Below, in pieces: positions 28,090 to 37,807 of a stretch of 64,000 nt of DNA. Location of the stretch: positions 1-64,000 of the forward strand of contig SHUG01000003.1 of assembly GCA_009694735.1 (NCBI GenBank). Reading direction: 5' to 3'. The position numbers and the translations under genes were made by a program. Within the stretch, counting starts at the first letter, position 1; each line of letters begins with the position of its first letter. The notes beneath the pieces are model-generated. The model was not told the origin of the DNA. It did no database searches and worked only from the letters and a program-made list of their open reading frames with translations. Source of the DNA: Acidobacteriota bacterium (GTDB lineage Bacteria; Acidobacteriota; Vicinamibacteria; Vicinamibacterales; UBA2999).

Positions 28090-28128
28090 CGATTCAATCG
28101 GTGTCCCACCGGTGTCAATCGGTGGCCT
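28090..28128. repeat. AATCGGTGT...AATCGGTGGCC interspersed repeat
   Basis: caatcggtgtcccaccggtgtcaatcggtggcc; related copies near 22893-22935 (inverted), 48121-48146 and 62927-62950. Confidence 0.6.
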
Positions 28129-28546
28129 AGACAGACGCGATCCACTGGCGCACGATCCCCTGGATCGCCGCCTCGTGCGCTTTCACGTCTTGAACGCCGG
28201 CAAAGTTCATGAGCGCGCGGTCCTTGGCCAGCCACTTGAGCAGTCCCTGCGGATTTTCGATCTGGAACGACGGGGTCTTGCGAACCTTCGCGCCGAGGTG
28301 AAGAATCACCCCGATGCCGTCCTTGGCGCGAAGATGCGTGGTGGCGAAATACTCGGTGGTGCGAAAGCTCGGCGGGTTCCACTTCACGCCTTCGGCGATG
28401 GCGGGATCGGCGCCGGCGATGATCGTGCGGAGCGCCTCGATGGCGGCCTTGTGCGGGTGCTCAAGGGTCGCCATGAACGCATCCACCGCTTCGGCGGTAT
28501 CGGCGTCTGTCTTCGTGCGTTCCGGACGTGGTTTCGGTGTGGCCAT
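28127..28546 (-). CDS. DUF1801-domain protein
   Basis: VDAFMATLEHPHKAAIEALRTIIAGADPAIAEGVKWNPPSFRTTEYFAT. Confidence 0.8.
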   Translation of the reverse strand: MATPKPRPERTKTDADTAEAVDAFMATLEHPHKAAIEALRTIIAGADPAIAEGVKWNPPSFRTTEYFATTHLRAKDGIGVILHLGAKVRKTPSFQIENPQGLLKWLAKDRALMNFAGVQDVKAHEAAIQGIVRQWIASV

Positions 28547-28639
28547 CCAGCAGGGATGTTATCAGGGAGCAGGGGCACGCTTGCGCACTCGACATGCGGC
28601 AGGCCCCGACGATGGTTCCGGCGTCCAATTCACATGCGC

Positions 28640-28811
28640 GGTGGCTATACTCGACCCAAGACCATGTCTCGCCGCGCCCTTCAGCTGGTGATGATGGGCG
28701 ACCAGCGTAATCCCACTGCCCGCGACGACGTCCGCGCGGCCCGTGCCGCGCGCGCACGGGGACGGTTCGACGATGCAAACGCGTTCTTCCGGGATGCGGA
28801 CGGTCTGGCGC
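28640..28811 (+). pseudogene. 5' remnant of the TPR/peptidase-MA gene at 35306-37807, 330-bp in-frame internal deletion
   Basis: 28640-28676 matches 35282-35318; 28671-28811 matches 35643-35783 with about 8 mismatches in 141 bp; junction at CGCCGCG direct repeat. Confidence 0.9.
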
Positions 28812-28836
28812 GTTGGCTCCATGTGAATGTTAACCG
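28812..28836 (+). other. Right half of an attC-like site (no left half)
   Basis: gttggctccatgtgaatgttaaccg resembles the right arms at 29463-29485 and 31511-31535. Confidence 0.6.
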
Positions 28837-29085
28837 GAACGGTTCTTCGTCGCCGGCACTAAACGAGGCATTCAGGGTCAGCATGAGGATCGATTGCGCC
28901 TGATCCTCGGTGCGCTCAATGCAGCAACGAGCCCCCAGGACTTGAACTTGCCCGGTCTGGGCCTCCATGAACTTCAAGGGAGTCGCACAGGCACCTGGGC
29001 GGTCAAAGTCAGCGGCAATTGGCGCGTAACTTTCGAGTTCGCCGGTAACGATGCTGAGCGCGTGGATTACGAAGACTATTACTGA
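28834..29085 (+). pseudogene. higB: HigB-like toxin lacking its N-terminus
   Basis: In-frame ERFFVAGTKRGIQGQHEDRLRLILGALNAATSPQDLNLPGLGLHELQG...VSGNWRVTFEF is HigB-like, but TAA at 28831 precedes it and no start is upstream; first candidate start is TTG 28894. Confidence 0.8.
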
Positions 29086-29094
29086 GGACGACCG

Positions 29095-29382
29095 ATGAAG
29101 ATGTACAACCCACCGCACCCGGGCGAAGTGCTCCGCGAACTGTGCCTGAAGCCGCTGGGCCTGACCGTCACCCAAGCCGCTCGGGGGCTGGACGTCAGCC
29201 GCAAGACCTTGTCCGCCATCTTGAACAGCCGCGCGGGGATCAGCCCTGAGATGGCTGTTCGTTTGTCGCTGGCCTTCGGCACGAGCGCCGAGAGCTGGAT
29301 GAACCAGCAGACCCAATACGACCTTTGGCACGTCGAGCGGCGCCGCAAGAAGCTGCATGTCGCCAGGTTGTCTGCCGCTTGA
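29095..29382 (+). CDS. higA: HigA-family HTH antitoxin
   Basis: [55 protein letters not shown]. Confidence 0.92.
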
Positions 29383-29407
29383 TTAGTTGATGGCTCGTTT
29401 CAATTCC

Positions 29408-29485
29408 GGCTAACGATTCAAATGAGCCGCGCCCGCAGACGCCCGTGAACGGGTCAAGGGCGTCGGCTCCATTTGAAGGTTAGCG
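29408..29485 (+). other. attC-like recombination site 1
   Basis: R'' ggctaac / R' gttagcg (6 of 7 complementary); L'' caaatgagccg vs L' cggctccatttg with one extra base. Confidence 0.85.
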
Positions 29486-29495
29486 GGCCGCTTGC

Positions 29496-29714
29496 TTACG
29501 CCGTCACTGGCATGAGTCGGTAGACCCGGCTGGCCAATCGCGATGCACGCCGGGGGTCACCGGACCGCAGCGCCTCTCGGACCTCGTCGAGCCGGTACGC
29601 GTCGCCGATTGACAGGTACGGCGCCCAGCCGCCCTCGGCCTCGAGGAGATCGACGTCGACTTCCGCAACGAAGTCGCCCTCGCGGACCAGTCGCTTGGTG
29701 GTCTTGGTGCTCAT
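29496..29714 (-). CDS. Antitoxin-like partner of a DUF4258 toxin
   Basis: MSTKTTKRLVREGDFVAEVDVDLLEAEGGWAPYLSIGDAYRLDEVREALRSGD; 4-nt overlap with the upstream toxin remnant. Confidence 0.6.
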   Translation of the reverse strand: MSTKTTKRLVREGDFVAEVDVDLLEAEGGWAPYLSIGDAYRLDEVREALRSGDPRRASRLASRVYRLMPVTA

Positions 29715-30033
29715 GTTCGTCTCTTCAGCCACGTCTCATCCCATCTTGCCGGATCTGGCCTGTACGCGGTGATCAAAACTGCCGGAGACGTTTGTCCCTC
29801 CGGAATGCCCCAGACGACGTGTACGGGCTTGCCTGTCTTGTCCTGCTCAAGCACGAGCACACAGGGGCCTTTCGGAAACTCGGGGTAGTCCTCAATGACT
29901 ACTGCCGCCCCAGCCCATCGACCACTTCGTGGACGAGAACCTGATCGGCTGCGAGTTCCTCGTATCCATAAACAGAAACACGCACCTCTGCGCGGGCCAC
30001 CAGTGCTCGCACCTGCTCCAAAGTCTGACTCAC
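29711..30033 (-). pseudogene. DUF4258-type toxin with frameshift
   Basis: VSQTLEQVRALVARAEVRVSVYGYEELAADQVLVHEVVDGLG|RQ*, continuing in another frame as [60 protein letters not shown]. One extra G in the run at 29908-29911 restores the frame. Confidence 0.78.
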
Positions 30034-30089
30034 CGCCTTGGCCCGTCCGTCATCGTGTAATCGTGTTGTCTCGGGATGGTCCTGTCCGT

Positions 30090-30665
30090 CTAAAACGAAT
30101 AGGGTTTCATCCGCACGGCCAGCGTCGTGATCTGCATGTGGCCCTCTCGACACACTGGACAGCGCGCCAGGTCGACCCCAGTAAGCCGGAGCACCAGCGC
30201 GTGCGACGATTCGGGAGGGGCCTCCTCGGTCGGCGGCTGGCCGAGCAGGTCACGACATGGGCGGACCATGTCGCGCCGCGTGCGATTGGCGAGCAGACCG
30301 AAGTGGCGAATGCGCATGAAGCCGCGGGGCACGACATGCAGCAGAAAGCGCCGGAGGAATTCGTCCGCCTCGAGGGTCATGACCTTCTCGTCCCCGGTTG
30401 CCGCGGCGACGGCACGCAGAACGACGTGCGGTCGCGCTTCAACCTCGCGTGACACAAGCAGCGCAACGCATTCACGGTGATGTTGCACGTACTCCAGGAC
30501 CGCCGGCGCTCGCGAATCAGATACCGCACATACGCTTGCACCTCGTCCTCCGACATCTGATCCGGTGATCGCCGGTAGTACCGGGCCAAGCCCGTGACGG
30601 CCGTCAGATACGTCTCGCGCGTCCGATGCTCGGTGGCGTCGATCGCCGAAGTGTGTGCGAGAGAA
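30090..30665 (-). mobile_element. Decayed IS91-type transposase fused to tyrosine-recombinase N-terminal fragment
   Basis: EADEFLRRFLLHVVPRGFMRIRHFGLLANR (IS91-like) and ETYLTAVTGLARYYRRSPDQMSEDEVQAYVRYLIRERRRSWSTCN (phage_int_SAM-like), both broken. Confidence 0.72.
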
Positions 30666-30716
30666 CTCTGGAAGGGCGCTGCGCCTCAGAGACGAGGCCT
30701 ACCGCGCAGCGGTTTC

Positions 30717-30799
30717 GTTCAACGCCGGCTTGAGCCGCGCGCCACGGTGACATGATCGCCCAGGACGCCTGGCGCGACGGCTCCAAGCCGATGTTATGC
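30717..30799 (+). other. attC-like recombination site 2
   Basis: R'' gttcaac; L'' cggcttgagccg vs L' cggctccaagccg with one extra base; R' gttatgc. Confidence 0.82.
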
Positions 30800-31213
30800 G
30801 ACGTGGCCCCGGAACAGCCTCAGGGGCGCGTGCCTCGCAATCGCCTTGAAGTCCTCGTCGACGGCGAAGAGTTCGTGGTTGCCGGTAATCGTACATGCGG
30901 CGATCAAGCAGTCGACCCCAGAAACGCTGAGCCCTTTGCCCAAGCAGACGTTCCTGACTCGCGCAGCCTCGACGTGTTCCGGAACTCCCGCGGGAACGAC
31001 GGCGAACGCCGCGAGCAGCTGCGTCGTGAGGTCGCTGAACTGCCGGGGGGACCGAATGCCGCTCAGCACCTCTTGCAGCACGATGCCGGGCAGGCCGAGG
31101 GGAACGTCCCTCGCCATCAGTTCGTCGAACACGACCTGCAGCCGTCGCTCCTCCGCCCCGGGGCGCCTTCGCCGGAACACGCGCGAGAGGACCGATGTGT
31201 CAAAGAGGATCAC
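30794..31213 (-). CDS. vapC: PIN-domain toxin, VapC-like (apparently intact)
   Basis: MILFDTSVLSRVF, SVSGVDCLIAACTITGNHELFAVDEDF; stop codon is supplied by attC site 2 (gTTAtgc). Confidence 0.85.
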   Translation of the reverse strand: MILFDTSVLSRVFRRRRPGAEERRLQVVFDELMARDVPLGLPGIVLQEVLSGIRSPRQFSDLTTQLLAAFAVVPAGVPEHVEAARVRNVCLGKGLSVSGVDCLIAACTITGNHELFAVDEDFKAIARHAPLRLFRGHVA

Positions 31214-31410
31214 CGGGCTCGTCGCTCCCGCTTGTAGTCGTACTGCGGGTCGTACGCGACCTTGCCCGCGAGCTTGGCCAGTTCCAGTCGCTGGCGCCGT
31301 TGGATGAACTCCCGTAGCGCCTCGTTCACCGTTTCGCGCTTGGTCCGGTACCCGCCCACGCTGCGGGCCTGATCGAGGAGTTGATCATCGATGGCGAGAT
31401 TGGTTGGCAT
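31210..31410 (-). CDS. vapB: VapB-type antitoxin
   Basis: MPTNLAIDDQLLDQARSVGGYRTKRETVNEALREFIQRRQRLEL; overlaps vapC start. Confidence 0.87.
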   Translation of the reverse strand: MPTNLAIDDQLLDQARSVGGYRTKRETVNEALREFIQRRQRLELAKLAGKVAYDPQYDYKRERRAR

Positions 31411-31447
31411 ACACAAAAATGCTACACATTCATCTTGTGTGCGTCAA
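31411..31447 (-). promoter_or_regulatory. Cassette-borne vapBC promoter and operator
   Basis: On - strand TTGACG, 17 nt, TAGCAT, 8 nt, ATG; ACACAA (31411-31416) / TTGTGT (31435-31440) inverted repeat around the -10. Confidence 0.7.
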
Positions 31448-31455
31448 GTTCTGTT

Positions 31456-31535
31456 GGCTATGCATTCCAAATGAGCCGCGCCGGGAAGCGGCGCGCGAGC
31501 GACGCGGCGGCGTCGGCTCCATTTGAATGTTATGC
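31456..31535 (+). other. attC-like recombination site 3
   Basis: L'' caaatgagccg vs L' cggctccatttg with extra base, R' gttatgc; left R'' degenerate (gctatgc). Confidence 0.78.
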
Positions 31536-31796
31536 CGCTACTTCGACCGTGGCGTAGAAATCGACCGCCCGAAGTAGTCGCCTCGGCCTGACTACACGCT
31601 GGCTTGGGCGCGGAATCGGAAGCCCGTCCTCGCGTAAGCCGCCGATGTGCAGCTCGATCGCCCGTTCGATCCGCCGCAGTGCCGTGTCGATCGTCTTTCC
31701 CGTGGCAACGCAGCCAGGCAAGTCTGGAACCGAGGCGCCCCAGTCGCTCCCGGCGTCGCGGTTAATGCGCACAAGATATTGCCGCGTCTTCGTCAT
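31530..31796 (-). CDS. hicB: HicB-type antitoxin
   Basis: YLVRINRDAGSDWGASVPDLPGCVATGKTIDTALRRIERAIELHIGGLREDGLPIPRPS; stop codon inside R' of attC site 3. Confidence 0.87.
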   Translation of the reverse strand: MTKTRQYLVRINRDAGSDWGASVPDLPGCVATGKTIDTALRRIERAIELHIGGLREDGLPIPRPSQRVVRPRRLLRAVDFYATVEVAA

Positions 31797-31797
31797 T

Positions 31798-31987
31798 TCA
31801 GTTCCTTCAACCCGGCTTGCCGCTTGACAGAGGCCAATGTGCCTTTCGGCATGTCGTCGCCGAGGCTGCCACTCACAGTCACCCGCCCGGGCTTCGTCAG
31901 GTGCTTGAACTGGCGATGACTACCTTCGGTACTAACCAACGCTCAGCCCTCGCCGTTCAGGCGCCGGATCACCTCACGAACCTTCAC
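31798..31987 (-). pseudogene. hicA: HicA toxin with in-frame TGA
   Basis: VKVREVIRRLNGEG*ALVSTEGSHRQFKHLTKPGRVTVSGSLGDDMPKGTLASVKRQAGLKELK; stop at the position expected to be Trp. Confidence 0.85.
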
Positions 31988-32071
31988 CCGACGACGCTAC
32001 CACAGCCGGCCGATGCGTTGGCGCCGATGGCGGAGGCTGTGTCGTGTGAGCATTTCGTCTGACTGGATTGC

Positions 32072-32146
32072 GGCATTACGATCGCGCTCACCCGTGAGCG
32101 CGCACGATAGCACCCGCGCGAGTCGGGTGCAGCGCCAAGTTGGCGC
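32072..32146 (+). other. Degenerate attC-like site 4
   Basis: gcgctcaccc ... gggtgcagcgc arms with extra base and R' gttggcg; closely resembles the site at 34530; R'' eroded (cattacg). Confidence 0.6.
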
Positions 32147-32260
32147 AAGATTCTTCGTCGTCGTGCTCTGTCCGGATCGGGCGCCGACGTCGGTTCGCGG
32201 GGTCGGCGCTCAGTCCGTTGTCTTCGTGTTCGCGCCCCGCGTCAAGCTGCAGGCAGCGCG
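32147..32260. repeat. Non-coding cassette element copy 1
   Basis: cgacgtcggttcgcggggtcggcgctcagtccgttgt; looks like copy 2 with the central hairpin deleted. Confidence 0.5.
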
Positions 32261-32280
32261 CTGAGCTGGGGGACGTCCCC

Positions 32281-32688
32281 TCATGGATGCGAGCGTCGCC
32301 GCAGAAGGCGCGCGCGGAGTTGAACTTGGTCATGGTCGTTGATGTCCAGTAGCTCGACGGTCGCGCGTCCCTCCGAAGTCAGCCCCTTGATGGTCCCATC
32401 AGGCTAAGATGAGAAGTGCTCTCGCCACGCGTGGCGCCTGGGGTGGTAGAGCGCCACGAGAGAGCCGGTCTCGGGGTCGATCGACGCGATATTCGGGCCC
32501 TTCTTCAAGTTGCAACGGATACAGCACAAGCACAAGTTGTCGACCTCGTCTGTTCCACGATGCTGCCGACCGATGATGTGGTCGACCTGGTGAGGCAGAA
32601 TCGATGCGCTCTGGGGACCGCGGCAGTACTCGCACGCACCATGAGCGCGGCGCTGAGCCAGCTCCCGCAAATCGCTCGATACCTTCAC
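32281..32688 (-). pseudogene. HNH endonuclease with internal TAG
   Basis: CEYCRGPQSASILPHQVDHIIGRQHRGTDEVDNLCLCCIRCNLKKGPNIASIDPETG...HFSS*PDGTIKGLTSEGRATVELLDINDHDQVQLRARLLRRRSHP. Confidence 0.72.
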
Positions 32689-32900
32689 GATGCCGCGCGC
32701 ATCGTCCAGAACTGCTCGGCCTCCAGCTTAAGGAGGCTCAGCATGTCGTTCAAACGAACGACTTCCGAGTACTCCTTCTGATCCTCAGGAGTGAGAAGGC
32801 CCGCGGTGCTCTTCTCGGCGAGCTCTTCGACTCGTGGGGCCAAGTCCTTGCTGATGGCGTCGAGCGCCGCTTCGAGCTGCTCCAACGTGTGCTTTTCCAT
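32685..32900 (-). CDS. Small protein upstream of the HNH gene
   Basis: MEKHTLEQLEAALDAISKDLAPRVEELAEKSTAGLLTPEDQKEYSEVVRLNDMLSLLKLEAEQFW; overlaps HNH start. Confidence 0.6.
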   Translation of the reverse strand: MEKHTLEQLEAALDAISKDLAPRVEELAEKSTAGLLTPEDQKEYSEVVRLNDMLSLLKLEAEQFWTMRAAS

Positions 32901-32979
32901 AAGGTTCTCCGTCGCCGGCACTTGCGGCAGCATGCCACCGATCCGCGGTCGCCACAAGCGCGGCACGGAGCGAGCCCGC

Positions 32980-33141
32980 CCAGTAGCCATCGTGCTGCCC
33001 GCGCCGGATCGACCACCGTCTACGTCGGTTCACGGGGTCGGCGCTCCCCCCGGTAGGGTCGAGGCGGGCCTCATGATTGTCACGGCCCGCCCCACGCTCT
33101 TGGCTCAGTCCGTCGTTCTCTCTCCGGTTCGTTCTTTTTCC
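32980..33141. repeat. Non-coding cassette element copy 2
   Basis: tacgtcggttcacggggtcggcg...ggcgggcctcatgattgtcacggcccgcc...ctcagtccgtcgttctctctccggttcgttc; contains GGCGGGCC/GGCCCGCC hairpin. Confidence 0.55.
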
Positions 33142-33215
33142 AGCCAACGCCCGGCTTCAGCCGCGGCGGCTCTCAGCATTTCACTCGCCGCCGTCGGCTG
33201 CAAGCCGTGTTGGGC
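33142..33215 (+). other. attC-like recombination site 5
   Basis: R'' agccaac / R' gttgggc; L'' cggcttcagccg vs L' cggctgcaagccg with one extra base. Confidence 0.82.
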
Positions 33216-33283
33216 GGCTCATCCAAGTCGTGCAGGGCGTCGTCAGCGCACCGTGAGACCGTTATCGACAAGGTTCAGAATTC

Positions 33284-34213
33284 CTAGTTGGACGCTCTCT
33301 CTGGCGCGGCTGGTCCCATGCCAGCAACCAGAAGCCAGAGGTCCTCATCCTTCGTCCCCTCGTAGTGCGTGCCGTTCGCAAAGTCGTGAATGTACGACCC
33401 CTTCGGCATTCCGACTGTCTTGTCCTTGTCGACGGACGATCCCGCGCCAATGTACATGCGTCCGCCCATGACCCAGACGAATTGATCGTTGGCGTGGCGG
33501 TGCGCCGTGCTCCAGCTATTCGGTGGCCGGCGGACAAACTGAACGTACAGGCCGGCTTTGCCCGGATCACCAAAGACATTGACGAACGTGCTGCCGTCGG
33601 CTGCTTTGGTCCACGCCATATCTTCCAGTTTCTTGGCTACACGCGCAGTCGGGTCGACATTCGGTCCACCAGGGGCACGAGGTGCCTCGTTGGCCGGGCC
33701 GCTATTCGTCCCACCCAGTCCGATAAAGAACAGCGTCACTCCATCTTGCCCCACGCCGTCGTAATGCATTCTTCCGGGGACTTCGCTGACAACCGTGCCG
33801 CCCCTCAGGGCATCCACTCGATTCCGATCTTGAACTGGCCCTGTGCCGGCCAGGAATGTTCCCTCGAGCACCGTGCCGTAGCGTTCCGTCGGGTGAGTGT
33901 GGGGGGCGCTCCAATTGTCGAAGGGGCGTCTCAGGAGCGAGACATAAATTCCGCCCGGTTTTGACGCGTCGCCGTAGAGCGTGAGACTTCCAGTGCCATT
34001 CCGCTCGACCCACGGAATCTCTGACGGCAGCTTGTAATCGCGGATGCTGCGATCCAGCGTGACGGGGGCCTGTGCCGCGACTGGCACAATGAGGCCAAGC
34101 TGTTTACTGATGACATCCCGCTGAGGGATTGCAGGCCAGAGCGAGACGCTCGGGCAGATTGCGAGCAGGACGAGAAATCGAAGCAGGAGCTTCTGTGATT
34201 TCGACGTTGTCAT
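33284..34213 (-). CDS. Secreted bicupin protein
   Basis: Signal peptide; two cupin repeats (PFDNWSAPHTHPTERYGTVLEGTF and PPNSWSTAHRHANDQFVWVMGGRMYIG). Confidence 0.75.
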   Translation of the reverse strand: MTTSKSQKLLLRFLVLLAICPSVSLWPAIPQRDVISKQLGLIVPVAAQAPVTLDRSIRDYKLPSEIPWVERNGTGSLTLYGDASKPGGIYVSLLRRPFDNWSAPHTHPTERYGTVLEGTFLAGTGPVQDRNRVDALRGGTVVSEVPGRMHYDGVGQDGVTLFFIGLGGTNSGPANEAPRAPGGPNVDPTARVAKKLEDMAWTKAADGSTFVNVFGDPGKAGLYVQFVRRPPNSWSTAHRHANDQFVWVMGGRMYIGAGSSVDKDKTVGMPKGSYIHDFANGTHYEGTKDEDLWLLVAGMGPAAPERASN

Positions 34214-34529
34214 AATTCGCTCTCCAGTTAGATGATAGTCCGCATTGGCGGGGCCGGTCACGGAAGACGCGGTGTTCCCCCTTGTCGCGTCGCCCCTTCG
34301 GATCGTGTACTTCAACCACGGGCAGGGCAGCGGATGGTTCGCGAACGGTTTGAGTGAACGACTGACCAGACATGTTCTTGACGTTGTTCCACAGCGGGGC
34401 ATCGGCGACATGTGCGACGTTGGTCGCAAGAATCAGCCGCGACGTGCTCCAAGCCAACGAATCATGGCGACCAATGAGACAACTCATCGTTTTCAAAGCT
34501 CTCGCCGAAGATTCTCTGGAAACCTGCCT

Positions 34530-34602
34530 AGACAACGTTCGCGCTCACCCGCGAGCGCGCACCAGACGACCCGCGCGAGTCGGGTGGAGCGCCCTGTTGG
34601 GT
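34530..34602 (+). other. attC-like recombination site 6
   Basis: R'' agacaac / R' gttgggt; L'' gcgctcaccc vs L' gggtggagcgc with one extra base. Confidence 0.82.
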
Positions 34603-34830
34603 TCTTGTTCGTCGTCGTCGCGTTCTTGCCGTGCCTTGATCATCCGCGCCGCCGACGCTCGGTTCGCCAGGTCGGCGGGGGAGTTCCGTTCCGGATCGTC
34701 GCCGCCTACCGCATCGACTTCCGGCGGGCCTCATGGTTCGCCACGGCCCGCCGACGCCGCGCCGGACTCGGTCGCCGTCACATCGTTCGGTTCTCTTTCG
34801 TTCGTGTCTTTCGTCTACCCAACGTCATTT
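34603..34830. repeat. Non-coding cassette element copy 3
   Basis: gacgctcggttcgccaggtcggcg...ggcgggcctcatggttcgccacggcccgcc...gttcggttctctttcgttcg. Confidence 0.55.
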
Positions 34831-35305
34831 GGGTGTCTGGTGCCAATTGCTGGTCAGCGCCCGCGGTCAAGACGCCTGCGCTTGAGTGCCACCCCCCACT
34901 CGCGCGCGTTATTGCCGTTATTCCAACCGGCCGCAAGTCCTTCTGCCCAAACGATTCGCCTCACTTGAACGACACCCGAACCCGGGAATTGGCACCGGCG
35001 CCATAACCCCGAAAATCCGTGGATAGGCAGTTGGCGCCATTCCCGGGATTGGGGCCAGCCGGGGTTGCAAACTGCCAACCGCGGTCTCGTTCGCCGAAGC
35101 GCGCCGCGCGAAGACGTGTCATGAAACCGGAATGCTCCCTGTTGTTGAAGGCTCCTTCAGGCTTCTGGCTGGCTCCTGACGTCCTACTCGTATGCGCCTG
35201 AGTGCCGGCGGGCCCCACGAGGCGGGCCGGTCCGCCGAAGCCGCCGCTCCGCTGAGTATCCACCCCAAGGGCCGCGGCGAAGGCGGCTATACTCGACCGA
35301 AGACC

Positions 35306-37807
35306 ATGTCTCGCCGCGTCTGGTTGCTCCTGGCTTCGGTCGTGCTAACCGTCGGGCTCGCGCCGTTCGTCACGGCTGAGCAGTCGCAGAACGTCGCGGC
35401 TGCGCGGGCCAACGCCGAGAGGTCGTGGCACCGTGGGCGTCTCGACGAGATCGGCAAGTTCGCCGATGCCTTTCCGAAAGACGAAGTGCTTGCCGTCTGG
35501 CGCGCCAAGGCCACCGCGGCCCGCGGCGATTACGCCGGTGCCGAATCGGGGCTGCAACCGTTTGCCGCCGCCAATCCGGCTGGCGACGCCGCACTCGAAG
35601 TGGGACTGCTCCAGCAGTTGGTCGGGCGCCGCGTTGAGGCGCGCCGCGCCCTCCAGCTGGTCATGATGGGCGACCAGCGCAATCCCACCGCCCGCGACTA
35701 CGTCCGCGCCGCCCGCGCCGCGCGCGCACTGGGACGGTTCGACGATGCAAACGCGTTCTTCCGGGATGCGGACGGTCTGGCGCCGAATGATCCGGCGATC
35801 AACACGGAGTGGGGCGACCTGTTCGTTGAGAAGTACAACAACAAGGACGCCGCGCGGTCGTTTCAGGAAGCCCTGAAGGCCGACCCCGAGTACGGCCCGG
35901 CGCTACTCGGCATGGCGCGGTCGCTCGCCGACCAGAACCCGGCGCAGGCCGTCGGCCTGGCGCTGCAGGCCCTCAAACAGAACCCCGTCGATTTGGGCGC
36001 ACACCTGTTCGTCGCCGAAATGGCGATCTACCAGGACAAGAAAAAAGACGCGCTCGAATCGATCGGCAAAGTGCTGGCGGTCAACCCGCAGCACCTCGAA
36101 GCGCTGTCGATGCAGGCGGCGCTGGCATTTGTCGAAGGACGCACGCAGGACTACGACGCGGCGCTGGCCGCCGCGCTCGCCATTCATCCGGCCTACGGCG
36201 AGATTCATCGCGTGGTCGGGTCGGTCACCGCGCATTACTACCGCTTTGACGAGGCGGTCGAGCATGTGCGCAAAGGCATTGCCCTGGACCGCGACAACGC
36301 CGTGGCCTATGCCGACCTCGGCGCGCACCTGATGCGCACCGGCGACGAGCGCAACGCCCGGCGCGCGCTCGAAACGGCATTCAAGGTCGACCCGTGGAAC
36401 GTCGTCACCTTCAACCTGCTCGCCCTGCTCGACACGCTGGAACCATTCGACACCATTCGCGAAGGCGACCTGGTGATCCGACTGCATCCCGACGAGAAAG
36501 ACGTGATGCGGCAGTACGTGCCGCAGCTCGCCAAGGAGTCGCTCGACGCGCTCAGCAAGCGGTGGGAGTTCACACCGAAGGGCCCCATCCTGATCGAGAT
36601 GTTCCCGAATCACGACGACTTCGCGGTGCGCACCCTCGGCCTGCCCGGCATGATTGGCGCGCTCGGTGCTTGCTTCGGTCGCGTGGTCACGGTCGATTCG
36701 CCGAAGGCCCGCGCGCCCGGCAGCTTCAACTGGGGCGAGACGCTGTGGCACGAAATGGCCCACGTGATCACGCTGCAGCTGTCGAACAACCGCCTGCCGC
36801 GATGGTTGAGCGAAGGCGCGTCGGTCTACGAAGAGCGGCGCGCCCGCCAGCAGTGGGGCCGGGAAATGGACATCCCTTTCGCCCGAGCGATGGACCGCGG
36901 CAAGTTGATCAGCCTGCGCGATCTGAACTCCGGCTTCAGTAACCCGGAACAGATTTCTTACTCCTATTACCAGGCGTCACTGGTCGTCGAGCACATCGTC
37001 GACGTGCATGGCCAGGCCAAGCTGCGTGCGCTGGTCGCGGCCTACGCTGATGGCTCCGACACGGAGACGGCCATTGGCAAGGCCCTGGGCGTTGACATCG
37101 ACTCATTACAGAAGACCTTTGATGGCTTTCTTGAGGGCCGCTACGCCGGCCTGCGGCGGGCGCTGGCCGTGCCGGAAGGGCTGACCGAGAAGACCCCCCT
37201 GGAACTGGTTAAGGTGATCGCCTCGGCCAATCCCGGCAGCTACACGGCGCAGATGGCACTCGGCGAAGCGCAGATCGAAAGCAGTCCCGATGGCGCCATC
37301 GCCGCATTCGAGCGTGCCGCGCAACTGATTCCGAACGTCACCGGCGAAGACAGCCCAGAGGCGCTGATCGCGGCGGTCGCCTTGAAGAAAGGCGATAAGT
37401 CGCGCGCCGCCGCCGCCCTGGAATCCCTGAGCGGCAAGAGCAACACTGACATCGCGTCGGCCCGGCAATTGGCGACGCTGGTTGACCCCGTGAAGGAACG
37501 TAGCCGTTTGCACGTCGCCCTCAAGAGCCTGGTGGCCATCGACCCGTTCGATGGCGCGGCCCATGCCACGCTGGGCCGTCTTGACCTTGACGCCAAGCGG
37601 ACGGACGAGGCCATTCGCATGTTCCGCGTGGCCCTGGCGTCGAAGCCGCTCGACCGCGCCGGCGCGCACGCCGATCTTGCTGAGGCCCTCGCCGAGGCGG
37701 GCCAGCGCGACGAGGCGAAGAAGCAAGCGCTCGCGGCGCTCGAGATCGCCCCCACCTTCACCCGTGCGCAAGACCTGCTGCTCAGGCTCGCCCAGGGCAG
37801 TCGTTGA
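35306..37807 (+). CDS. TPR protein with peptidase-MA-like gluzincin domain
   Basis: Repeated TPR-like helices; ETLWHEMAHVITLQLSNNRLPRWLSEGASVYEE (HExxH + downstream E). Start ATG 35306. Confidence 0.83.
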   Translation: MSRRVWLLLASVVLTVGLAPFVTAEQSQNVAAARANAERSWHRGRLDEIGKFADAFPKDEVLAVWRAKATAARGDYAGAESGLQPFAAANPAGDAALEVGLLQQLVGRRVEARRALQLVMMGDQRNPTARDYVRAARAARALGRFDDANAFFRDADGLAPNDPAINTEWGDLFVEKYNNKDAARSFQEALKADPEYGPALLGMARSLADQNPAQAVGLALQALKQNPVDLGAHLFVAEMAIYQDKKKDALESIGKVLAVNPQHLEALSMQAALAFVEGRTQDYDAALAAALAIHPAYGEIHRVVGSVTAHYYRFDEAVEHVRKGIALDRDNAVAYADLGAHLMRTGDERNARRALETAFKVDPWNVVTFNLLALLDTLEPFDTIREGDLVIRLHPDEKDVMRQYVPQLAKESLDALSKRWEFTPKGPILIEMFPNHDDFAVRTLGLPGMIGALGACFGRVVTVDSPKARAPGSFNWGETLWHEMAHVITLQLSNNRLPRWLSEGASVYEERRARQQWGREMDIPFARAMDRGKLISLRDLNSGFSNPEQISYSYYQASLVVEHIVDVHGQAKLRALVAAYADGSDTETAIGKALGVDIDSLQKTFDGFLEGRYAGLRRALAVPEGLTEKTPLELVKVIASANPGSYTAQMALGEAQIESSPDGAIAAFERAAQLIPNVTGEDSPEALIAAVALKKGDKSRAAAALESLSGKSNTDIASARQLATLVDPVKERSRLHVALKSLVAIDPFDGAAHATLGRLDLDAKRTDEAIRMFRVALASKPLDRAGAHADLAEALAEAGQRDEAKKQALAALEIAPTFTRAQDLLLRLAQGSR

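Follow-up and report, generated by a model that had tools for sequence, protein, structure and literature searches.

An integrase-less cassette array between two copies of the 5' part of a TPR/peptidase gene in an Acidobacteriota genome

In the stretch of 64,000 nucleotides analysed here (the window), a truncated copy of the start of a TPR/peptidase gene lies on the left of an integron cassette array, and the intact gene lies on its right. We consider it probable (a probability of about 0.68) that the array, which has no integrase, entered a single-copy gene and that a stretch of about 502 bp of the target thereby came to flank it on either side. The empty site in relatives, the native flank on the left, both junctions and the 7-bp repeats are seen directly. 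The arrangement is a single case, found in a draft genome of 182 contigs that is 85.7% complete.

The truncated copy and its original position

The features of the gene and its surroundings are:

28127-28546, minus strand: DUF1801 gene (Pfam PF08818, E = 3.8e-12), native left neighbour of the TPR gene, which it adjoins in three array-free congeners
28600-28663, plus strand: DNA natively upstream of the TPR gene; contains the block GGTTC..GCGTCCAA..ACATGC and, at 28646-28651, the TATACT box; aligns with the upstream DNA of the congeners L034, L035 and L036
28664-28811, plus strand: native 5' end of the TPR gene (the remnant), codons 1-4/5 fused in frame to codons 115-159 according to the alignments, cut at 28811
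28670-28676, plus strand: CGCCGCG, the one copy left at the 330-bp deletion; partners at 35312-35318 and 35642-35648
35282-35783, plus strand: duplicated block, made up of the 24 bp before the ATG of the intact gene and 478 bp from the ATG onwards (repeat alignments, comparison with congeners)
35306-37807, plus strand: TPR/peptidase gene, intact, with a product of 833 aa (matches to Pfam PF13485 and to TPR families; 84-86% identity to congener orthologues)

According to Pfam the product of the intact gene is a TPR protein with an MA-family peptidase domain. A preliminary description, made from the sequence alone, had presented the region 28640-28811 as a remnant of this gene that had lost 330 bp in frame between 7-bp repeats, and both the alignment and a search of the genome confirmed it. 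More specifically, positions 28640-28676 form a direct repeat with 35282-35318 (95%, offset 6642) and positions 28670-28811 with 35642-35783 (94%, offset 6972), so that the pairwise alignment reproduces the offsets and the CGCCGCG endpoints that had been given. In the whole draft genome these repeats of the intact gene are the sole partners of the remnant, with E-values of 2.9e-58 and 1.7e-9 that rule out chance similarity. The gap corresponds to exactly 110 codons and the homology at its junction is exactly 7 bp. Among random deletions of 200-420 bp within the 502-bp block, only 0.17% would have a homology of 7 bp or more. Because such homology is rare by chance, repeat-mediated deletion between the CGCCGCG copies is a well-supported origin of the gap.

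The remnant is a truncated copy of a gene that is intact in the same genome, as would be expected of a pseudogene derived from a duplicate. The reading frame that starts at its ATG (28664) spans 79 codons, the first 50 or so of which are derived from the gene, after which it continues through half an attC site and the start of higB, out of the frame of the latter, to a stop at 28903.

The comparison with relatives revealed which of the two copies occupies the original site. In L034, L035 and L036 a GT gene, the DUF1801 gene, a short spacer and a single TPR gene follow each other, and there is no array. The upstream DNA of all three can be aligned to positions 28600-28664, which adjoin the remnant on its left, whereas before the intact gene the homology to the congeners starts only at about 35282. 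Since the upstream DNA of the remnant matches that of the congeners and that of the intact copy does not, the so-called remnant is, on this comparison, the native 5' end of the gene at its original site, and it is the intact gene that has moved away from its upstream DNA. The sequence TATACTC was found shortly before the ATG in nine of the nine relatives read. The block GGTTCNNGCGTCCAA..ACATGC is present in the three nearest relatives (as ATATGC in one of them), is kept by the stub and is absent before the intact gene. It is because the stub sits at the original promoter position that it has retained the TATACT hexamer and the ATG; the retention had been noticed correctly, but it is not the oddity of a degraded paralogue that it had been taken for.

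A full second copy in relatives, which the preliminary description proposed to look for, was sought and not found: the gene is single-copy, with no second or tandem copy, in all congeners whose locus is whole. Moreover, the remnant and the intact copy are each other's closest relatives, being 6% apart versus at least 17% to any congener. Thus, the idea of a decayed copy with a duplication behind it stands, but that of a remnant of a full second gene was not demonstrated, considering that the native 5' end is cut at the array and that the relatives have one copy and an empty site.

The inserted array and its joins

The array and its parts are:

28812-35281 (right end approximate), minus strand: integron cassette array without integrase, recognized from attC-like sites and cargo families; missing from the same site in three congeners
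28807-28811, plus strand: GGCGC, possible microhomology at the left gene/array join; in the gene at 35779-35783, and the same letters at the matching place of the attC of the related cassette L055
28812-28835, minus strand: half attC with a single arm at the left end of the array; whole attC at the matching place in the related cassettes L054 and L055
28834-29085, plus strand: higB (Pfam PF05015), truncated at its 5' end, with the promoter and about 11 codons missing; the full-length start reads VAIKGFRHKGLEQFF in L054 and is similar in L055 and L056
29095-29382, plus strand: higA antitoxin gene (NCBIfam TIGR02607, E = 1.3e-32)
Near 29412-29481, 30721-30795, 31466-31534, 32076-32142, 33146-33211 and 34534-34598, minus strand: attC-like sites with imperfect two-arm folds
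30794-31416, 31530-31796, 32404-32688 and 33284-34429: cargo, in this order VapBC, HicB, HNH and cupin
34821-35131, minus strand: right-end array sequence, probably attI-side leader; common to contigs C11, C140 and C172

The six attC-like sites with two-arm folds share arm sequences with the attC of cassettes in other genomes. Four of them were recovered by a blind attC scan, which by itself is unspecific in this GC-rich DNA (20 matches elsewhere in the window). The cargo consists of HigBA, VapBC, HicB, the HNH and cupin proteins and a piece of an IS91 transposase. This piece is a truncated IS91-family transposase at 30090-30700 (NF033538, positions 261-355 of 356); beside it lies an open reading frame (30377-30589) that resembles the start of a recombinase and has no family match.

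A tblastn search with the integrases of relatives gave no match in the array or its flanks, and no integrase remnant was found in 34600-35281. Integrase fragments are present on other contigs of this genome (G000 contigs C123, C165, C163 and C2), and among 60 relatives there are 28 with an integrase that exceeds the curated cut-off. Some of the fragments lie at contig edges, which suggests multi-copy integrons that break the assembly. The asymmetry of the arms and the orientation of the genes suggest that the array is read on the minus strand, with the attI side at the right. The sequence at that end recurs at the right ends of cassette regions elsewhere in the genome (C11:13063-13188, C140:22936-23161 and C172:8791-8828), and its copy on C140 adjoins an integrase remnant that lacks the N-terminus. 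It is probably the leader of the attI side.

The gene remnant ends at 28811, exactly where one attC arm begins; it goes no further since the array, which opens with half an attC, starts at this point. A remnant that itself was a gene cassette was considered and rejected, as the join falls in the middle of an attC with only one arm there. The left join has GGCGC as a candidate homology, which would give a possible microhomology of up to 5 bp, and the right join has 2-3 bp at most. A single-strand fold of the right junction region gave nothing above shuffled sequences. The related full-length cassettes L054-L056 continue at this place with about 75 bp in which higB has its promoter region and its start. 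In the window that promoter region and the first 11 or so codons have been lost between GGA microhomologies (28829-28894), and higA is intact.

How the arrangement may have arisen

In the reading that we prefer, the array (28812 to about 35281) would have joined into the 5' part of the single-copy gene in a way that left some 502 bp of target (35282-35783) at each side. The left copy would have retained the native upstream region and been cut at codon 159, and the right copy would have comprised the whole gene with just the final 24 bp upstream of its ATG. Being useless afterwards, the left copy would then have lost 330 bp between the CGCCGCG copies and gained point changes. The joining itself was presumably a microhomology-type event and not the action of an integrase, i.e. 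a replication template switch to an array and back, or an end joining with duplicated target. One joining event, which placed the array between two overlapping gene parts, is the simplest reading, and the overlap of about 502 bp is as expected for one duplicated target. No full second gene is ever required, because what remains on the left is the native 5' end, which the array boundary cuts off.

The divergence of the copies is where a different history has to be weighed. In the ungapped alignment (28677-28811) there are eight mismatches, of which six are synonymous, in agreement with the earlier count; the two amino-acid changes (Y132D and L142R) are both carried by the remnant. The copies differ at 6% of sites (dS of about 0.2, dN of about 0.02), versus a whole-gene dS of 0.78-0.89 to the three nearest species, and the dN/dS of about 0.1 between them is the same as between orthologues. 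The synonymous majority and this dN/dS speak for a history in which the full TPR gene was tandem-duplicated, both copies remained functional while diverging, the array then replaced the 3' part of the first and the upstream region of the second, and the remnant decayed. Indeed, with insertion first and neutral decay of the left copy the probability of at least six synonymous changes out of eight is 0.04-0.09, the observed number being slightly above the prediction, and in the best-fitting mixture, from the same eight differences, constraint acted on the left copy for about 75-80% of its time. However, the likelihood ratio in favour of constraint on both copies over a left copy that was neutral since the insertion is just about 1-3 with only eight differences, and it is the left copy that carries both amino-acid changes. 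Such a history would moreover require an additional duplication and a large replacement, and no congener has a tandem or second copy. We therefore regard it as unlikely.

The excess of synonymous changes fits either history because the intact copy is constrained in both, and constraint before decay and decay after insertion are inseparable with eight differences. The proposal that the copies had diverged under protein constraint before the decay was thus not demonstrated. The preliminary description was to be refuted by relatives showing that the fragment arose after the array insertion, with mostly nonsynonymous changes. Half of this was found: the relatives lack any second copy, but the changes are mostly synonymous. 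The dS of about 0.2 can stand either for an old insertion or for two different starting alleles, and a foreign allele brought along with the array would give the same pattern of divergence.

The latter possibility leads to a circle that held the cassettes and a 502-bp piece of the gene, perhaps a diverged allele of another strain, and that entered the chromosome through one homologous crossover. An insertion of this kind gives exactly the layout seen, with native upstream region and truncated end on the left and truncated upstream region and whole gene on the right, and a diverged allele would explain the mostly synonymous differences without long constraint. Nevertheless, no piece of the TPR gene was seen in a cassette or circle among the 60 relatives, and an earlier illegitimate joining of the gene piece and the array would be needed anyway, which makes this origin rather improbable. 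An assembly artefact, in which strain variants were misjoined around an integron in the metagenome assembly, might be suspected from the draft state of the genome and the integron pieces at contig ends elsewhere, but it is very improbable: both flanks lie on one contig and show synteny to three congeners, there is a difference of 6% between the copies in addition to the 330-bp gap at a 7-bp repeat, and the left join falls in non-repeated DNA, within an attC.

Long duplications are not general to the arrays of this genome, because the array on C11 has none. This integrase-less array of about 1.6 kb (L087:3661-5281) lies between a peptidase gene and a tannase-like gene, and comparison with the empty site in G008 revealed no long duplication. 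Likewise, no long direct repeats were found within 9-10 kb around the related sequences on C11, C140 and C172.

Consequences and relation to known systems

Only the stub keeps the conserved DNA that precedes the TATACT box; the intact gene has lost it. A scan for the sigma-70 consensus gave no match on either copy. Judging from the layout, the stub with its native upstream DNA reads into the truncated higB region and may now help to transcribe higA, the promoter region of which is deleted, and the intact gene, left with the TATACT box only, would have to rely on its new upstream DNA.

The history of one array insertion is here fixed almost base by base, through the empty site, both ends and the upstream region that is split between stub and gene. 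Being one case, it amounts to modest genome archaeology, with the caution that a copy that has a promoter and an ATG may mark the original position and not the duplicate. Should comparable long repeats lie beside other orphan arrays, they would point to a way for cassettes to get to new loci with no integrase involved. As a general claim, that arrays can do so by replication template switching or by homologous capture that leaves long target copies, this is still doubtful. If true, long direct target repeats would be a recognizable scar of how some CALINs form, i.e. clusters of attC sites without an integron integrase, which have been proposed to be degraded integrons (IntegronFinder 2.0, PMC9024848).

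The case is a new instance of known processes, in which one feature is mildly to moderately unusual, namely that a cassette array is surrounded by a long duplication of its target. Where microhomology mediates a template switch, or where a tandem duplication takes up inserted DNA, the target is directly duplicated and foreign DNA lies between the copies. The direct duplication around foreign DNA and the possible short homology at a join are alike; here a footprint is seen, and the process behind it is presumed. With pseudogenes derived from duplicates the remnant shares the truncation, the (slippage) deletion at short direct repeats and the amino-acid changes that occur only in the remnant; it differs in that the stub is at the original position and the intact gene has been displaced.

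Cassettes can also be brought to new genomic sites outside an integron by integration at attG (Loot et al. 2024, cited in PMC12444791). Recombination by the integrase at such a site would be expected to give a conservative join at a short core, which would not by itself explain the 502-bp duplication or the join in the middle of an attC, and on those two features the array does not fit this mode of entry. The closest likeness is to CALINs, in the several attC-like sites, the cassette-type cargo that includes toxin-antitoxin pairs and the lack of an adjacent integrase. The array differs from them in that it interrupts the 5' end of a chromosomal gene, is flanked by direct gene copies of about 500 bp and has one end in the middle of an attC.
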